Assembly: GCA_020850475.1 (NCBI GenBank)
Contig: JADZEO010000006.1
Coordinates: forward strand, 1 to 32,533
Origin: Bdellovibrionales bacterium
GTDB taxonomy: Bacteria > Bdellovibrionota > Bdellovibrionia > Bdellovibrionales > UBA1609
Length of the DNA: 32,533 bases
Direction of reading: 5' to 3'
The position numbers were made by a program, and so were the translations under genes. Position 1 is the stretch's first letter; every line of letters starts with the position of its first letter. Shown here in pieces: positions 23,007 to 30,611 of the stretch. Under the pieces are notes generated by a model. It was not told where the DNA came from. It searched no databases and worked only from the letters and a program-made list of their open reading frames with translations.

Positions 23007-23774
23007 CTAAAACTCCATCACCACTTTCACTGGGCAGTGGTCTGAACCCATTTGTTGATCCTGAATATCAATCGACTTCACTTGATTAACCAGCTGGGGC
23101 GTCACGCAAATGTGATCTATCCGCCAACCCCGATTGGCGATGCGAGCGTTTTCACGATAAGACCACCAGGTGTATTGCTCGGTGGTCCGAGGATGAAAGT
23201 GAGCAAACAAATCCACAAAGCCAGTCTCGAGAAATCGTCCAAACCACGCGCGCTCTTCCGGCAAAAATCCACTGACTTTGCTCAGGCGAACCGGATCAAA
23301 AACGTCGGTGTCTCGGTAAGCCACATTATAGTCGCCTACGACCACAACTTCGTGCCCCTCTTGAATCTTCCGCTCCAAGTGCTTACGAAACTTTTCCAAA
23401 AACTCTTGCTTGTAGAGGTGACGCTCCTCACTCGCGGCTCCATTCGGAAAATAAACATTGTACAGCAAAAATTCAGGGTAACGGGTCACCACAAAGCGCC
23501 CTTCAGAATCAAATTTGCGAATCTGAATTCCGTATTGGATTTCTTCAGGTTTTTGTTTGGTGTAAGTGACGGTGCCGCTATAGCCAGCCTTCTGCGCGGC
23601 CGACCAATAGGCTTCCCACCCTGGCGGGTGCAGCAACTCTTCCCCGAGTTGATTGGGATGGGCTTTGGTTTCCTGCAAACACAAAATGTCTGGGGACTCA
23701 CGGCGTAGATAATCGAGTAAGCCCTTGGGGGCACACGCCCGAATGCCGTTGACGTTCCAGGTGACCAGTTTCAC
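23007..23774 (-). CDS. xthA: Exodeoxyribonuclease III (AP endonuclease)
   Basis: This Mg-dependent exonuclease/endonuclease/phosphatase-fold enzyme repairs abasic sites and 3'-blocked ends. Motifs in order are NVNGIRA, LQETK (metal-binding Glu), GYSG, VVGDYNVA (catalytic Asp/Asn), WWSYR, NRGWRIDH and the catalytic GSDHCPV close to the C-terminus. The 255-residue length is normal. The start is GTG 23774, with GGGGAGG four bases upstream. It is the first gene of an operon with fxsA and diverges from the peroxiredoxin gene over a 180-base gap, so two oxidative-damage functions share that upstream region. A short palindrome lies 22-36 bases upstream of the start. Confidence 0.96.
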   Translation of the reverse strand: MKLVTWNVNGIRACAPKGLLDYLRRESPDILCLQETKAHPNQLGEELLHPPGWEAYWSAAQKAGYSGTVTYTKQKPEEIQYGIQIRKFDSEGRFVVTRYPEFLLYNVYFPNGAASEERHLYKQEFLEKFRKHLERKIQEGHEVVVVGDYNVAYRDTDVFDPVRLSKVSGFLPEERAWFGRFLETGFVDLFAHFHPRTTEQYTWWSYRENARIANRGWRIDHICVTPQLVNQVKSIDIQDQQMGSDHCPVKVVMEF

Positions 23775-23954: not shown

Positions 23955-24479
23955 ATGCCCATGATCGGTCAACCCGCACCTCAGTTTAAAGCCCCAGCTG
24001 TCGTCGATGGTGGAGACTTCAAAGATGTGAGTCTCAGCGACTACAAGGGAAAGTGGGTGGTCCTGTATTTTTACCCCCTCGATTTTACCTTCGTCTGCCC
24101 GACTGAAATCACTCAGTTCCGCGACTTTCTTCCGAAGTTTAAGGAAGTCGGCGCCGAAGTGATTGGTGTTTCGGTGGATTCGGTTCATTCCCACCGTCGG
24201 TGGATTAAAGATGACCTCGGCGACCTCCACTATCCTCTCATTGGTGACATCACCAAGCGCCTGGCGCGCGACTATGGGGTGCTGTTGGAGGATTCGGGAA
24301 TTGCCACTCGGGGCACCTTCATTATCGATCCAGAAGGCAAAGTGCAGTACATGGGAATCCACAACACCAAAGTGGGCCGCGATGCCAACGAAATCCTGCG
24401 CGTTCTAACCGGACTTAAATCAGGCGAAATGTGTGCCGCCGGCTGGAAGCCCGGCGAAAAACACATCAAACTGAAGTAA
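23955..24479 (+). CDS. Typical 2-Cys peroxiredoxin (AhpC/Prx1 type)
   Basis: This 174-residue thiol peroxidase reduces hydrogen peroxide and organic hydroperoxides. The peroxidatic Cys is C48 in PLDFTFVCPTE, with T45 and R119 completing the active site. The resolving Cys is C160 in GEMCAAGW, so it is a typical 2-Cys enzyme forming inter-subunit disulfides. AGGAGG precedes ATG 23955 by six bases. A second ATG two codons later is also possible. It could be recycled by the thioredoxin system (trxB at 968) or an AhpF-like reductase not seen here. The ATP-grasp gene starts 19 bases downstream and is probably co-transcribed. Confidence 0.96.
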   Translation: MPMIGQPAPQFKAPAVVDGGDFKDVSLSDYKGKWVVLYFYPLDFTFVCPTEITQFRDFLPKFKEVGAEVIGVSVDSVHSHRRWIKDDLGDLHYPLIGDITKRLARDYGVLLEDSGIATRGTFIIDPEGKVQYMGIHNTKVGRDANEILRVLTGLKSGEMCAAGWKPGEKHIKLK

Positions 24480-24498
24480 CGTCTCCACCGACGCACGG

Positions 24499-25707
24499 AT
24501 GAGCACGACAGACTTTTATCGCCGCTTGGTCGAGTTGTTTGCGCGGGAGTACCCTTCGGTGCTGCCGCTCGAGCAACACTTTGAACTCCAGTCGACGATT
24601 TCTCCTTATGTTATTCAGCTCGACAAAAAAGTTCTGTCGCGGCTCCGGACTGGAATTCGAAATCTTTATGCTCTGTCTCGCAGCGCTGAGTACCAGGGCA
24701 AAATTGCCGCCAAAGATCGGGAAATTCTCCAGCAGCCACCCCGTCAGCACTCGGTTCTCATGGCTTACGATTTTCACGTTGGCGAGGAACACGACAGCCT
24801 CATTGAGATTAACACCAATGCCTCGATGTTTTTGGTTGCCGATCTCGTTCATCGCGCTCACGGCGACACCTTCCCGTTGCAAGAGCCGGCGCTTCAAGCT
24901 CTGCAAGAGTCTTTTGTTCACGAATACCAATTGTTTTCCTCCTCGTCGGGCGGGCCCCGCCGGATCGTCATCACCGACGAAACCATTCGGGAACAAGGTC
25001 GCTACATCGAATTCCTGATGTACCAAGAACTCTTTGGTCGCTGGGGATGGCAAGCTGAGGTGATCGACTTTGATCAGCTGCGAATGGACAACGCCGCCAA
25101 AGCTCTCCTGACTCCGGCTCAAGAGAAGATCGACTTTTTATATAATCGCTATTGCGATTTTTATTTGGACCGCGCACCCTCGCAACACCTGCGCCAGGCC
25201 TATCTCCAAAAATGGTGTTGTGTCAGTCCCAACCCTTTTGAATATTTGGTGCTGGCCGACAAATCCCGCCTCGTTGAGCTGGCGAGCCCTGATTTTTCGA
25301 CCGGCTTACCGGTCACGCCTGAGGATTGGGCGACGATTCAACAATTTCTGCTGCCCACTTACGACGCGCGCACCTACGGAACTCCCGAGCAACTGTGGGC
25401 CGATCGCAAAAAATTGTTCTTTAAACCCAAGAATCAGTACGGCGGCAAATCCGCCTACCGCGGTGAAAAAATCAGTCGCTCGGTGTTTCAGCGCGCCCTT
25501 GACGAGGATTTCTTGGTTCAACGTTTTGCACCACCCCCAGAGCCACGCTTTCGCCAAAAGGACGTCGACCCCAGCGGCTGGAAGTACGACCTGCGCCTTT
25601 ATGTTTACGAAGATCAGATCCAGAACGTGATCGCCCGCCTTTACCGAGGCCAATTGACCAACTTTAATTCCGAGTGGGGCGGCTTTGCTGCGGTCGAATT
25701 CGTCTAG
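24499..25707 (+). CDS. ATP-grasp-like protein, substrate unknown
   Basis: This 402-residue protein has no family name that I can give, but its C-terminal half reads like an ATP-grasp ligase. FFKPKNQYGGKSAYRG (307-322) is the ATP-binding Lys plus glycine loop, FLVQRF (338-343) the hinge, DLRLYVY (364-370) and IARLYRG (378-384) the Asp/Arg pair, and TNFNSEWGG (387-395) the closing Asn-containing loop. An N-terminal LIEINTNAS (101-109) resembles the Glu-x-Asn metal site that permuted ATP-grasp enzymes carry early in the chain. DFLYNRYCDFYL (212-223) is another typical block. Such enzymes join carboxylates to amines. The start ATG 24499 lacks a good ribosome-binding site, 19 bases after the peroxiredoxin gene, suggesting coupling. 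Confidence in the fold is moderate; I cannot name the reaction. Confidence 0.75.
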   Translation: MSTTDFYRRLVELFAREYPSVLPLEQHFELQSTISPYVIQLDKKVLSRLRTGIRNLYALSRSAEYQGKIAAKDREILQQPPRQHSVLMAYDFHVGEEHDSLIEINTNASMFLVADLVHRAHGDTFPLQEPALQALQESFVHEYQLFSSSSGGPRRIVITDETIREQGRYIEFLMYQELFGRWGWQAEVIDFDQLRMDNAAKALLTPAQEKIDFLYNRYCDFYLDRAPSQHLRQAYLQKWCCVSPNPFEYLVLADKSRLVELASPDFSTGLPVTPEDWATIQQFLLPTYDARTYGTPEQLWADRKKLFFKPKNQYGGKSAYRGEKISRSVFQRALDEDFLVQRFAPPPEPRFRQKDVDPSGWKYDLRLYVYEDQIQNVIARLYRGQLTNFNSEWGGFAAVEFV

Positions 25708-25708
25708 T

Positions 25709-25726
25709 GCCACCTCCTTGGGTGGC
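25709..25726 (+). other. GC-rich hairpin just after the ATP-grasp gene
   Basis: GCCACC and GGTGGC pair over a six-base loop, one base after the TAG stop. No T-run follows, so it is at best a weak or Rho-assisted terminator or an mRNA-stabilising stem. It lies in the 151-base gap before the SelO-like gene. Confidence 0.35.
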
Positions 25727-25858
25727 CTTACGGCTTCACCGAGACGATTTCACCTCTTTTTTGTGAAGAAAAACGCCTAAGCACTGCAGCTGACACACCA
25801 TCCTGCCGATAAATTGAGAAATTGGTACGGTACATTCCGACCAAAGGAGTGTTTCGAT

Positions 25859-27742
25859 TTGAGTCAAAAGAAGGTTTCTCTGGCGCGCCTCAAGCCGCTC
25901 CCTGCGGCCAAGCCCGAGAACAATCGAGATCACGAGTACGTGGCTTTTGACCAGTTGGATGGACAACACCCGTGGATGGATTTCGTTCCCGAAGGTTATG
26001 TTCCTTACCAAGCAAGAATTCTCAATGAAGGCAAGGTGGCCTATTTTAACTTTGAACTCGCTAAAGAAATGGGACTTCTCACCAGCGACCATCCTCACAC
26101 GCTGACCCCGGCACTCAAGAAAAAGATCTTGGATACCTTTTGCCTGCGGATTATTAACGAGTACGACCAGCAGCGAGGTGCCCAGTTTCCCAAGGATCGG
26201 CTCAAGGCGCATCCCTACATGGCGACTCGCTATCTTCAACTCCAACATGATAACAAACAGGGTAAGACCAGCGGCGACGGGCGCTGTATTTGGAATGGGG
26301 TCTTTAAGGGCAACGGCCGCCTGTGGGATGTCAGTAGTCGCGGCGTGGGTGTCACGCGCCTGGCGCCCGGTGCGGTAGAGGCCGGACGGCCACTGCGCTC
26401 GGGTTCGACGGATTTTGGATACGGTTGCGGAATGGCGGAACTCGACGAACTCTACGGCGCCACCATTCTTGCCGAAATTTTTCATCGCCAAGGGATTAAC
26501 ACTGAGCGGATGCTCGCGCTCATAGACCTGGGCGGCGGACTCGGCATTGGCGTGCGCGCCGGCCCCAATCTCATTCGGCCCGCTCACTTGTTTTTGTATC
26601 TAAGGCAGGGCCAACGGGAATCTCTGCAGCGCTCAGTCGACTATCTGATTGTCCGCCAACATCGCAATCGCGAATGGCGCTTTGGTATTCATCATCCTCA
26701 GCGCTACCGACTCATGCTCACCGAACTCTGTCGCTCATTTGCGCAGTTTATCGCCACCCTTGATCGCGCTTACATTTTCGCGTGGTTGGATTGGGATGGC
26801 GACAATGTTCTCGCCAACGCTGGTATTATCGACTATGGCAGCGTCCGCCAATTTGGCGTTCGCCATGACCAATATCGATATGACGATGTCGAACGGTTTT
26901 CGACCACGCTCAATGAACAAATTCCCAAGACTCGAGCGCTGGTGCAGACTTTTGCGCAAATTGTTCATTTCTTGGAAACCGGCAAGCGCGAAAGCTTTGA
27001 GAGCTTTGCCAAACATCCGGTGCTACGCGAGTTTGATCACTTGGTGCAACGTCACTTGCGCGAAGGTCTTCTGCATCAACTCGGTTTCCCGCAGCGCGAG
27101 CGGGATTTGCTGATGAGGCGCTACCGCCGTGACGTGAATCGCCTCTACGATCTCTTCACTGCAATCGAGCGCACCAAAACCAAGCTCGGCGTGCAAAAGG
27201 TGGCCGACGGAGTCAATCGACCGGCGGTCTTCAATATGCGAACACTCGTTCGCATTCTCATTGAGTATTACCATGATCACCAGGCCTCTTTAGAAAAGGC
27301 TCAGTATCCGACGGAGAAGCTGTTCCGCGAAATACTCTCAGAGTACGCGACCCGTAAGGATTCACGACTGACACCATCACTCTCCAAGCAGTTGGACGAT
27401 TTGCAATCGCGGCTTCTGCACCTTCTGAAGATCGCTTTGCGGCGCTCCTCTCTCTCTAAGAGTAAGTTGATGGACACTCTTCTCCAGCGGGCAACGGTGT
27501 TGAACCGCGAAGATCGCATCACGGGCAACGCCTTGATCCACATCGTGGATGAAATCATTGAGTCTCGAAAGAAGGGCTTCTCCGATGCCGATTTGCAAAA
27601 AGTGATGGATGAGTTCATCAAGAACCAAAGCATGCCACCCGAGGCGGTCTCGCCCGACGAGCGCCCCTTTGGGTCAGGCCGTAGGCAAGATCTCATCGAC
27701 TCCCTCCTTTCGCTCGTTGAAAACCACAAAGAGGACATCTAG
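25859..27742 (+). CDS. Divergent SelO/YdiU-family pseudokinase (putative protein AMPylase)
   Basis: SelO proteins use a flipped kinase fold to transfer AMP from ATP to Ser, Thr or Tyr of other proteins, linked to redox homeostasis. Family landmarks here, in order: GDGR (139-142), a glycine loop RGVGVTR (161-167), GRPLRS (176-181), the helix Glu E206 with HRQGINTER, VRAGPNLIRPAHL (R233, R240), the catalytic WDGDN (D315, N316) and IIDYG (D325). Where known members have LKGxG, this one reads SSRGVG, so Arg161 seems to replace the ATP-contacting Lys. The 627 residues exceed E. coli YdiU (478). The C-terminal ~200 residues are helical and charged, without the family's C-terminal Cys/Sec motif. The start is TTG 25859, with AAGGAG 9 bases before it; a TTG at 25814 lacks support. 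Confidence 0.78.
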   Translation: MSQKKVSLARLKPLPAAKPENNRDHEYVAFDQLDGQHPWMDFVPEGYVPYQARILNEGKVAYFNFELAKEMGLLTSDHPHTLTPALKKKILDTFCLRIINEYDQQRGAQFPKDRLKAHPYMATRYLQLQHDNKQGKTSGDGRCIWNGVFKGNGRLWDVSSRGVGVTRLAPGAVEAGRPLRSGSTDFGYGCGMAELDELYGATILAEIFHRQGINTERMLALIDLGGGLGIGVRAGPNLIRPAHLFLYLRQGQRESLQRSVDYLIVRQHRNREWRFGIHHPQRYRLMLTELCRSFAQFIATLDRAYIFAWLDWDGDNVLANAGIIDYGSVRQFGVRHDQYRYDDVERFSTTLNEQIPKTRALVQTFAQIVHFLETGKRESFESFAKHPVLREFDHLVQRHLREGLLHQLGFPQRERDLLMRRYRRDVNRLYDLFTAIERTKTKLGVQKVADGVNRPAVFNMRTLVRILIEYYHDHQASLEKAQYPTEKLFREILSEYATRKDSRLTPSLSKQLDDLQSRLLHLLKIALRRSSLSKSKLMDTLLQRATVLNREDRITGNALIHIVDEIIESRKKGFSDADLQKVMDEFIKNQSMPPEAVSPDERPFGSGRRQDLIDSLLSLVENHKEDI

Positions 27743-27857
27743 AGACGCGCTCTCTTGGTCTTCACGCCCTTACCTTTTGAGTTGACGGCCCGCGCGATAA
27801 GGGTTCCTTTGCGCCGCTTTCCTCTCTCGTGGTAGACCCTTGCTAAGGAGCGAAGGC

Positions 27858-28829
27858 GTGATTGTAGTGACTGGTGCGACAGGATTTATCGGCAGTGCCC
27901 TGGTGTGGGAACTCAATCAGGCCGGCCACACGGACTTGCTCCTGGTCGATCACGTCCAACCTCAGGACCGGCCCGATCTCCTCGCCCAGCGAACTTTTGC
28001 AGATTTTATTTCCGCCCAACACTTGTTCTCCTACCTGCGAGAGAACTCGCAAGATATTTCGGCTATCCTCCACATGGGCGCCTGCTCCTCAACTACTGAA
28101 ACTGACGAAACCTATTTGCGAGTCAATAATACCGAATACACCCAGCAACTTTTTGAGTTCTGTGCCAACCACCAAATTGCCTTTCAGTATGCCAGTAGTG
28201 GTGCCGTCTATGGCGATGGTAAGCGGGGATTTTCTGATCGAACCGCGCCCGAGGAGTTTCGACCGCTGAATCCCTATGGTTGGTCTAAACAACGATTTGA
28301 CGTCTGGGCTCTAAAACAGTCGCACCATCCGCCGCATTGGCAGGGTTTGAGATTCTTTAACGTCTATGGCCCCAATGAATATTTCAAGGGTCCGATGGCC
28401 AGTGTGGCCTACAAGGCTTTTCTGCAAATTCAAGATACGGGACGTCTTAAACTCTTTCGCTCGCATCACCCCGATTACCAAGACGGCAAACAGCTTCGCG
28501 ACTTCGTCTACGTTAAGGACATCACCCGCTGGATGGGGGAGATTCTGGCCGCCAAGGGGAGCGTTCGCAACGGAATTTACAATCTCGGCTTTGGCAAAGC
28601 TCGAACGTGGCTTGATCTCGCACAAGGTGTTTTCTCGGCCTTGGGACTCGAAATCAAAATTGACTGGATCGATGTCCCGGAGAATATTCGCAACCAGTAC
28701 CAATATTTTACGGAAGCAAAAATGGACAAAGCTTTTGGAGAAGGACTTTCTTTGCCCCAATGGCCCTTGGAGCGTGGAGTTGGTGATTACGTTACCAACT
28801 ATTTACTAAAACCCAACTCCTACCTTTGA
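27858..28829 (+). CDS. hldD: ADP-L-glycero-D-manno-heptose 6-epimerase
   Basis: This extended SDR enzyme makes ADP-L-glycero-D-manno-heptose, the precursor of the LPS inner core. Visible features are the NADP loop TGATGFIG (5-12), the HldD signature HMGACSSTTETD, YASSGAVYG and the catalytic YGWSK (Tyr/Lys), then FFNVYGPNEYFKGPMAS, also diagnostic of HldD. The protein is 323 residues, normal for the family. I chose GTG 27858, since AAGGAG lies seven bases upstream and MIVVTGATGFIG matches the usual N-terminus. The frame is open to TTG 27840, which would lie before the ribosome-binding site. No other LPS gene is nearby. It is followed 21 bases downstream by the hydroxylase gene. Confidence 0.95.
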   Translation: MIVVTGATGFIGSALVWELNQAGHTDLLLVDHVQPQDRPDLLAQRTFADFISAQHLFSYLRENSQDISAILHMGACSSTTETDETYLRVNNTEYTQQLFEFCANHQIAFQYASSGAVYGDGKRGFSDRTAPEEFRPLNPYGWSKQRFDVWALKQSHHPPHWQGLRFFNVYGPNEYFKGPMASVAYKAFLQIQDTGRLKLFRSHHPDYQDGKQLRDFVYVKDITRWMGEILAAKGSVRNGIYNLGFGKARTWLDLAQGVFSALGLEIKIDWIDVPENIRNQYQYFTEAKMDKAFGEGLSLPQWPLERGVGDYVTNYLLKPNSYL

Positions 28830-28850
28830 AGTCTTGCGATGGAGAATTTG

Positions 28851-30611
28851 ATGGCACAGGCCAGTCAACCCGCACCCACGATTCCCCACCATCTCAAAAA
28901 GTACGTGGTGGATCAAAATTATGAACGGTACACGCCCGAAGATCAGGCGACTTGGCGTTACATCATGCGCCGACTCATTGATTTTCTCAGCCAGCATGCT
29001 CACCCTTGCTATGTCAGCGGCCTGGAAAAAACCGGGATTACGGCCGAGGAAATTCCACAGATCGAAGAGATCGATCAAAAGCTGCGCGCCTTTGGCTGGT
29101 CGGCTGTTCCGGTGAGCGGTTTTATTCCACCGGCCGCATTTATGGAATTTCAGTCGCTGGGAATTCTACCGATCGCCAGTGATATGCGCACTCTCGAGCA
29201 CCTGCTTTACACTCCTGCTCCGGACATTGTTCACGAGGCCGCCGGCCACGCGCCAATTCTGATCGATCCCGGCTTTGCTCGTTACCTCAAACGCTACGCC
29301 GAGCTCGCGAGCAAAGCCATTATCAGCAAAGAGGATATGGAGCAGTACGAAGCCATTCGAATTTTGAGCGACCTCAAGGAAGATCCGGCGAGCTCGCCGG
29401 CCCAAATTGCAGAGGCGACTCAACACCTTGACGAAGCGACTCGCGCCATTACCTATCTGAGCGAGGCCGCCTTTTTAGGACGGATGAATTGGTGGACCGC
29501 CGAGTACGGACTCATTGGCAGTCTGGACCGTCCAAAGATCTTTGGCGCCGGTCTGCTTTCATCGGTGGGTGAATCGAAGGACTGCTTGCAGCCAAAGGTC
29601 ACCAAAATCCCTTTGACGTTGCATTGTCTCGATTACGCCTATGACATCACGGAGCCTCAACCTCAGCTCTTCGTCACTCCTAACTTTGAAACTCTCGAGT
29701 TGGTGTTGGATGAGTTGGCGGAGAGAATGGCTTTTCGCCAAGGTGGTTTGATCGGTCTCGAAAAAGCCCGCAAAGCCAAAACGGTTAACACCATTGAGCT
29801 GGACACCGGATTGCAAATTTCAGGACAGCTGGACGAAGTGTTAGTGCGCCAAATCGCCGGGCTCGAGGAGCCGGTTTTCTTGCGCCTGCAGGGCCCCGTG
29901 CAACTTTGCTGGAGTGGCCACCAACTCGCGGGACACGGAACCTCCTATCATCAACACGGCTATAGCAGCCCCTTGGGGCGCCTCAAAAATGAAGCCCACT
30001 GTCTGTCGAAAATGTCCAATGAGGAGCTGCAACGCCTCGGTGTGGTTGAGGGGCGCCGAGCGGACCTGTTGTTTGCAAGTGGTATCGCGGTTTCGGGCAC
30101 AGTCCAGACCTTGCTTCGCCAACAAGGAAAACTGATCGTCATCACCTTCACAGACTGTCGAGTCACCGATGGAACCAAAGTTTTGTTTGACCCCAGTTGG
30201 GGCGCTTTTGATTTGGCTGTCGGCACGCAAGTCACTTCTGTCTTTGGTGGTCCAGCCGATCGACCGGCTTTTGGCAACCTAGACGACTTTGTTGCCAAAC
30301 GAGTTCCTGTGCGTAAAATCTCTCCCGAACGTCTCCAGAAATTTGAATTCTACCAAGCTCTACGACTGCTGCGCCATAGTGACAGTCCCGAGACCTCCCG
30401 GGCGAAGCAGCTGGTTGAACTCGTTCAACATTACCAGCGGTCCTTTGCCGCCGAGTGGCTCATGGGTGTGGAGCTTTTGGAAATGGCCCATCGACTAAAA
30501 TTAAAAGACCTCTGCCGAGCACTCGAACAGCATCTTTTGACTAACGCTCCCATCAAACCCGACGAGCGCGAGTGTGTTACCGAGGGGATTCGCTTGGCGC
30601 CCAACTTATGA
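28851..30611 (+). CDS. phhA: Aromatic amino acid hydroxylase (phenylalanine 4-monooxygenase-like), long form
   Basis: This non-heme iron, tetrahydropterin-dependent monooxygenase probably converts phenylalanine to tyrosine. Iron ligands are H128 and H133 (DIVHEAAGHAPIL) and E218 (NWWTAEYGL). The substrate-pocket GAGLLSSVGE follows at 232-241. The catalytic domain ends near residue 300. A further ~285 residues form a C-terminal extension with IELDTGLQISGQL, LQGPVQLCWSG and a helical end, much longer than the compact ~300-residue proteobacterial enzymes. ATG 28851 has GGAG six bases upstream and gives 586 residues; ATG 28839 is the in-frame alternative. Its stop overlaps the next gene's ATG by four bases (ATGA). 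The exact substrate (Phe, Tyr or Trp) cannot be read here. Confidence 0.9.
   Translation: MAQASQPAPTIPHHLKKYVVDQNYERYTPEDQATWRYIMRRLIDFLSQHAHPCYVSGLEKTGITAEEIPQIEEIDQKLRAFGWSAVPVSGFIPPAAFMEFQSLGILPIASDMRTLEHLLYTPAPDIVHEAAGHAPILIDPGFARYLKRYAELASKAIISKEDMEQYEAIRILSDLKEDPASSPAQIAEATQHLDEATRAITYLSEAAFLGRMNWWTAEYGLIGSLDRPKIFGAGLLSSVGESKDCLQPKVTKIPLTLHCLDYAYDITEPQPQLFVTPNFETLELVLDELAERMAFRQGGLIGLEKARKAKTVNTIELDTGLQISGQLDEVLVRQIAGLEEPVFLRLQGPVQLCWSGHQLAGHGTSYHQHGYSSPLGRLKNEAHCLSKMSNEELQRLGVVEGRRADLLFASGIAVSGTVQTLLRQQGKLIVITFTDCRVTDGTKVLFDPSWGAFDLAVGTQVTSVFGGPADRPAFGNLDDFVAKRVPVRKISPERLQKFEFYQALRLLRHSDSPETSRAKQLVELVQHYQRSFAAEWLMGVELLEMAHRLKLKDLCRALEQHLLTNAPIKPDERECVTEGIRLAPNL

Follow-up and report, generated by a model that had tools for sequence, protein, structure and literature searches.

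An uncharacterised ATP-grasp ligase of Bdellovibrionales as a candidate glutathione synthetase

A bacterial protein with the fold of eukaryotic glutathione synthetases

In a stretch of 32,533 nucleotides from a Bdellovibrionales bacterium (assembly GCA_020850475.1, contig JADZEO010000006.1), hereafter the window, the gene of an uncharacterised ATP-grasp protein, hereafter AG, is preceded by a peroxiredoxin gene and followed by the gene of a divergent SelO-like protein. The sequence-only reading of the window had described a 2-Cys peroxiredoxin, an ATP-grasp protein of no named family and a SelO-like protein in a row on one strand, with gaps of 19 bases (Prx to AG) and 151 bases (AG to SelO-like), and both the coordinates and the family searches bear this out:

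23955..24479, + strand: 2-Cys peroxiredoxin (Prx; Prx1/AhpC type), from PF00578 (4e-45) and the Cys motifs in the translation
24499..25707, + strand: AG, 402 aa, uncharacterised ATP-grasp ligase with an apparent circular permutation, candidate glutathione synthetase, from the AlphaFold model, Foldseek and profile matches to 5oes and four eukaryotic glutathione synthetases (GSS)
25859..27742, + strand: divergent SelO-like protein, from PF02696 (23.6 bits), a SelO/YdiU model match and hhalign to canonical SelO

AG matches no Pfam or NCBIfam model, i.e., no curated family, including the prokaryotic GshB (TIGR01380) and the eukaryotic-type glutathione synthetase (PF03917), and its assignment as GshB, RimK or a member of another curated family was rejected on that ground. 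When its AlphaFold model (pLDDT 93) was compared by Foldseek, the 19 highest-ranking matches were synthetases of glutathione or homoglutathione, together with GSS-like proteins (TMq 0.55-0.70, E-values as low as 4e-16), the next in the ranking being glutathionylspermidine synthetase and YgiC/YjfC (PF03738), which share the permuted ATP-grasp fold; AG differs from these in lacking the amidase domain. The best structural match is thus the eukaryotic-type GSS (PF03917; 2hgs, 1m0w, 5oes), itself a permuted ATP-grasp. At the sequence level, the AG profile found a single match in the PDB, namely potato GSS 5oes (E 0.0026), and in hhalign it aligned with four eukaryotic GSS, the human one being identical in sequence to 2hgs, at E 3.3e-6 over 276 columns. 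The alignment is collinear and comprises the E-x-N-T loop, the YxR motif and the KP...GG loop, although AG is bacterial, only ~12-15% identical and ~400 aa long.

Within the AG family, 32 members of which were compared with Pfam, PF03917 was reached by 3 (best E 0.0028) and PF03738 by 2 (E 0.0037), and weak matches were obtained to tubulin-tyrosine ligase (TTL) in 13 (best 8.6e-6) and to YheC/D in 12. In one member, residues 54-110 match TTL positions 202-257, and residues 249-309 match YheC/D positions 9-71; with a late part of TTL standing early and an early part of YheC/D standing late, the order is that predicted for a circular permutation, and the family thus looks, from its sequences, like a circularly permuted ATP-grasp. 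The same weak matches could suggest an amino-acid ligase that modifies proteins, acting on a protein tail as do TTL or RimK, but they span generic ATP-grasp motifs only, GSS is favoured by the profile and by the fold as a whole, and such a ligase would not explain the GshB complementarity described below, so that this alternative appears highly improbable.

The 32 proteins share a conserved signature, with an E-x-N-T-N loop near the start, a K-P loop late in the sequence and the series D-x-R ... R-x-Y-x-G-Q-x-T-N ... G-G. In human GSS, gamma-Glu-Cys is contacted by R267, S151, E214, N216, R125 and S149 (PMC2845819). These contacts are retained in part: R217 of AG corresponds to R267, and E103/N105 to E144/N146 of the human enzyme, the E103/N105/S109 loop being retained. 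Towards the C-terminus, R380 and GG394-395 are conserved and by eye resemble Arg450 and the A-loop of GSS; a profile alignment of this region to GSS was discarded, being unsupported by hhalign.

Glutathione pathway genes across the phylum

The counts below refer to 59 related genomes and, where indicated, to a wider set of 192 genomes of the phylum. A GshA of the PF08886 type is encoded in 55 of the 59 relatives, elsewhere than at the AG locus, and a GshA of the E. coli type in none; as sources of gamma-Glu-Cys, the latter and PF04107 were set aside since the one is absent and the other patchy, whereas PF08886 is near-universal. Counting as true GshB only matches of at least 250 bits, GshB is found in none of the 46 AG-bearing relatives versus 6 of the 13 AG-less ones (p=4e-5, or 1.5e-4 with good genomes only, in Fisher tests which, here and below, ignore shared ancestry). 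Matches of 60-80 bits to TIGR01380 were rejected as hidden GshB of AG-bearing genomes, because that of the present genome is RimK and such matches also occur beside true GshB. Phylum-wide, GshB is absent from 50 of the 55 genomes with AG and present in 114 of the 137 without.

This complementarity extends to the locus itself, AG missing from its slot in the GshB-bearing genomes G015, G051 and G058, where Prx and the SelO-like gene are spaced by 176-240 bases. The reduced genomes G016 and G030 lack AG, GshB and also GshA, and seven AG-bearing genomes devoid of GshB encode a reductase with 36-53% identity to Gor of E. coli; four small ones retain AG, GshA and Gor with neither this Prx nor the SelO-like gene. 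Expression of glutathione peroxidase and glutaredoxin by B. bacteriovorus has been reported (PMC12546842). Among open-licence papers, none was found on AG, nor on GshB in Bdellovibrio.

On the strength of its fold and of these genome comparisons, AG is probably the missing glutathione synthetase of Bdellovibrionales, or else a ligase whose product closely resembles glutathione. From the fold and the genome context, we infer its substrate, its product and the displacement of GshB as follows: (i) the PF08886-type GshA, encoded elsewhere, would make gamma-Glu-Cys, (ii) AG would then convert gamma-Glu-Cys, glycine and ATP into glutathione, ADP and Pi, or carry out this step with a different small amino acid, and (iii) AG would have displaced the ordinary bacterial GshB in this order. 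AG and GshB would as such share a reaction and show complementary phyletic distributions, but no profile match reveals homology between them at the family level and the ATP-grasp order of GshB is not permuted. A role in a low-molecular-weight thiol, raised by the sequence-only reading for the three genes together, is supported for AG, given its GSS-like fold, the presence of GshA and the complementarity with GshB. Glutathione is the main redox and metal-binding thiol of the cell. If the assignment is correct, Bdellovibrio-type predators no longer have a gap in their glutathione pathway, and a core enzyme has undergone non-orthologous displacement by a eukaryote-like one.

Several observations weigh against this assignment. 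In the substrate pocket, R125 of human GSS, which contacts the Cys part, is replaced by A or S in AG, and the region of E214/N216 is altered, with Q166 and E171 invariant there instead. Nematode proteins of the GSS fold with a changed pocket have lost glutathione synthesis, so that the use of gamma-Glu-Cys can be lost in this fold (PMC5919673), and the fold alone is therefore no proof of the reaction. As regards distribution, the AG-less genomes with GshB represent about four lineages (two f1 genera, family f2 and one f5 genus), AG and GshB coexist in five genomes, all outside Bdellovibrionales, and no GshA was found in the AG-bearing genome G007. Furthermore, five relatives with GshA have neither AG nor GshB, which a synthetase role of AG leaves unexplained; two of them, G005 and G033, are good assemblies (97-100% complete), in which the thiol may be gamma-Glu-Cys itself or a different ligase may be present.

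Besides, several Bdellovibrionales encode a GCS2-like protein of 474-486 aa and of unknown type (L186 1634-3094, L187 371-2775, L188 1028-3471 and L190 174-2608), the gene of which overlaps an AstE/AspA-like gene in at least L187 and L190, suggesting an undescribed pair.

Mobile relatives in metal resistance islands

AG relatives, ~31-36% identical, occur on ~31 proteobacterial plasmids, and those that were read are annotated as hypothetical proteins. Together with the copies from Bacteriovoracia, they form a clade apart from the Bdellovibrionales proteins (FastTree, support not tested), the two clades having in common 44 positions at which conservation is at least 90%. Nineteen plasmid loci (L221-L239) were read, for example:

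L222:5935-7125: AG relative on pMR68
L232:6556-7827: AG relative on pCB4
L239:8884-10134: AG relative on pHAL1

Named copper or mercury genes lie within the stretch shown in 14 of these loci and a heavy-metal P-type ATPase in 2, the neighbours in the remaining 3 being only RND, CDF or DUF305. In none of three control stretches of 38 kb, taken from three of the same plasmids, was a resistance gene for copper or mercury named, and one stretch carried an arsenic resistance gene. In Streptococcus pyogenes, glutathione is reported to act as a copper buffer (PMC7733945), and a thiol product would on that basis fit such islands.

A broader proposal, which we hold slightly less probable than its contrary, is that AG defines an additional class of thiol-tripeptide ligase, bacterial, permuted and eukaryote-like, which replaced GshB in a predatory order; its sister clade would be a mobile and unrecognised component of copper/mercury islands on proteobacterial plasmids, where it would raise or alter the metal-buffering thiol pool. 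A "hypothetical protein" recurrent in resistance islands for copper and mercury would thereby gain a function. It is possible, though, that another metal-binding compound is made in these islands. An alternative reading of AG is that it ligates another acid or amine, e.g., converting glutathione or gamma-Glu-Cys into a metal-binding peptide or amide in the manner of glutathionylspermidine synthetase, the complementarity with GshB being incidental. The membership of glutathionylspermidine synthetase in the same fold class, the occurrence of relatives with the same conserved residues in proteobacterial copper/mercury islands, the coexistence of Bacteriovoracia copies with GshB and the partial conservation of the substrate pocket all speak for it. 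Yet the missing GshB step of Bdellovibrionales would stay unexplained, the R267-like and metal-ligand residues are kept in AG, and the small genomes retain AG together with GshA and Gor, so that a different product seems rather unlikely and glutathione synthesis is preferred.

Outside the order, the genomes G177, G146 and G203 have AG-like copies (L192-L195) as well as GshB. L194 has genes of an aldehyde dehydrogenase and of an acetolactate synthase as neighbours, and the same pair lies near the Sphingobium plasmid copy L226. A further relative, of 34% identity, lies close to one end of a contig of 42 kb that is classed as viral (L220 5001-5948, IMGVR_UViG_3300037117_000312).

Prx and the SelO-like gene within a syntenic block

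AG is part of a longer conserved gene order, which in the named loci reads agmatinase-DksA-SH3-FxsA-XthA, divergent from Prx-AG-SelO-heptose epimerase-aromatic amino acid hydroxylase-TrmJ-DnaJ. Three further members of this block in the window are:

23007..23774, - strand: exonuclease III-like gene XthA, divergent neighbour (PF03372 9e-33; next to Prx at 26/26 named loci)
27840..28829, + strand: ADP-glyceromanno-heptose 6-epimerase, downstream neighbour (TIGR02197 above cut-off; synteny)
28839..30611, + strand: aromatic amino acid hydroxylase, further neighbour (NF010657, 712 bits; synteny)

No Rfam match was obtained, and promoter and terminator signals did not exceed those of shuffled sequences.

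The 59 relatives comprise 46 genomes with AG, 41 with the SelO-like gene, 36 with a close Prx and 24 with all three, and in these 24 the order Prx-AG-SelO on one strand is nearly invariable, an adjacency beyond chance. The recurrence expected of a functional unit, as the sequence-only reading had suggested the three genes might be, is thus found; it is uninformative, though, since the whole block is conserved. Adjacent pairs were counted in SelO-centred named loci (L001-L030 and L141-L168 left out, loci not oriented): Prx-AG adjacency (24/24) is matched by that of FxsA-XthA (21/21) and XthA-Prx, and AG-SelO adjacency (20/37) is not tighter than that of SelO and the heptose epimerase (22/37). 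With the entire block syntenic, adjacency is weak evidence for a shared function. As for co-occurrence, AG and the SelO-like gene are found together in 32 of the 59 genomes, exactly as expected by chance (p=1.0), Prx and AG not beyond chance (p=0.75), and Prx and the SelO-like gene are modestly associated (p=0.008, uncorrected for phylogeny). Across the phylum, AG is present in 55 of the 192 genomes, 50 of them Bdellovibrionales, and the SelO-like gene is widespread without AG in Bacteriovoracia.

A single dedicated redox system, in which AG or the SelO-like protein would modify the peroxidase or a thiol partner, could account for a gene order kept by most Bdellovibrionales, for the constant Prx-AG pair and for the Prx-SelO-like association. 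Against it stand the synteny of the whole block, the independence of AG and SelO, the small genomes that keep AG without its two neighbours and the Bacteriovoracia with the SelO-like gene but no AG; such a system appears quite improbable and was dropped as the lead explanation, and for a modification of the peroxidase by the cluster, also envisaged beforehand, nothing was found in favour. The genes around AG look like long-standing chromosomal neighbours, Prx and the SelO-like gene being mostly such; both may share a redox physiology with AG but are not needed for its proposed role as a glutathione synthetase. More generally, conserved adjacency within a syntenic block should not be taken for a system.

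The SelO-like gene likely starts at the TTG at 25859, nine bases after AAAGGAG, in a reading frame open from 25814. Its product barely exceeds the Pfam cut-off for PF02696 (22.8 bits) and, at 25.6 bits, falls far under the 431-bit cut-off of NCBIfam YdiU, but its predicted model has the SelO fold (TMt 0.71 to SelO/YdiU) and hhalign relates it to canonical SelO at E 3.5e-13. In common with the SelO/YdiU adenylyltransferases, it keeps the catalytic Asp/Asn (D315-N316), the DYG Asp (D325) and two Arg, all invariant, whereas, by profile alignment, the beta-3 Lys (E. coli K107) is replaced by R161, or by C in Bacteriovoracia, and the alpha-C Glu (E. coli E130) by A201; it further differs by another N-terminal motif, an extra C-terminal region and the lack of a C-terminal Cys. 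Judging by these residues, it may be a nucleoside monophosphate transferase with an altered nucleotide pocket. Its named matches are metagenome-assembled genomes of Bdellovibrionales and relatives, including Bdellovibrio bacteriovorus, and in the phylum it is matched in 102 of the 192 genomes, many of them Bacteriovoracia, a few weak hits, some to canonical SelO, being included.

Prx is an ordinary 2-Cys peroxiredoxin of the AhpC type, with an AhpC-TSA domain and, as read from the translation, both the peroxidatic and the resolving Cys, namely C48 in FVCPTE and C160 in GEMCAAGW; its score of 166 bits lies under the NCBIfam AhpC cut-off of 272, and it is distinct from the canonical AhpC encoded elsewhere in the same genome. 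The latter belongs to a second peroxiredoxin-SelO neighbourhood (L191, G000 C163, 4791-10286), in which AhpC lies beside an AhpF-like reductase gene and the canonical SelO a few kb off. No AG-bearing genome combines a true glutathione reductase with the close Prx (0/29 vs 7/17, p=4e-4, phylogeny uncorrected).

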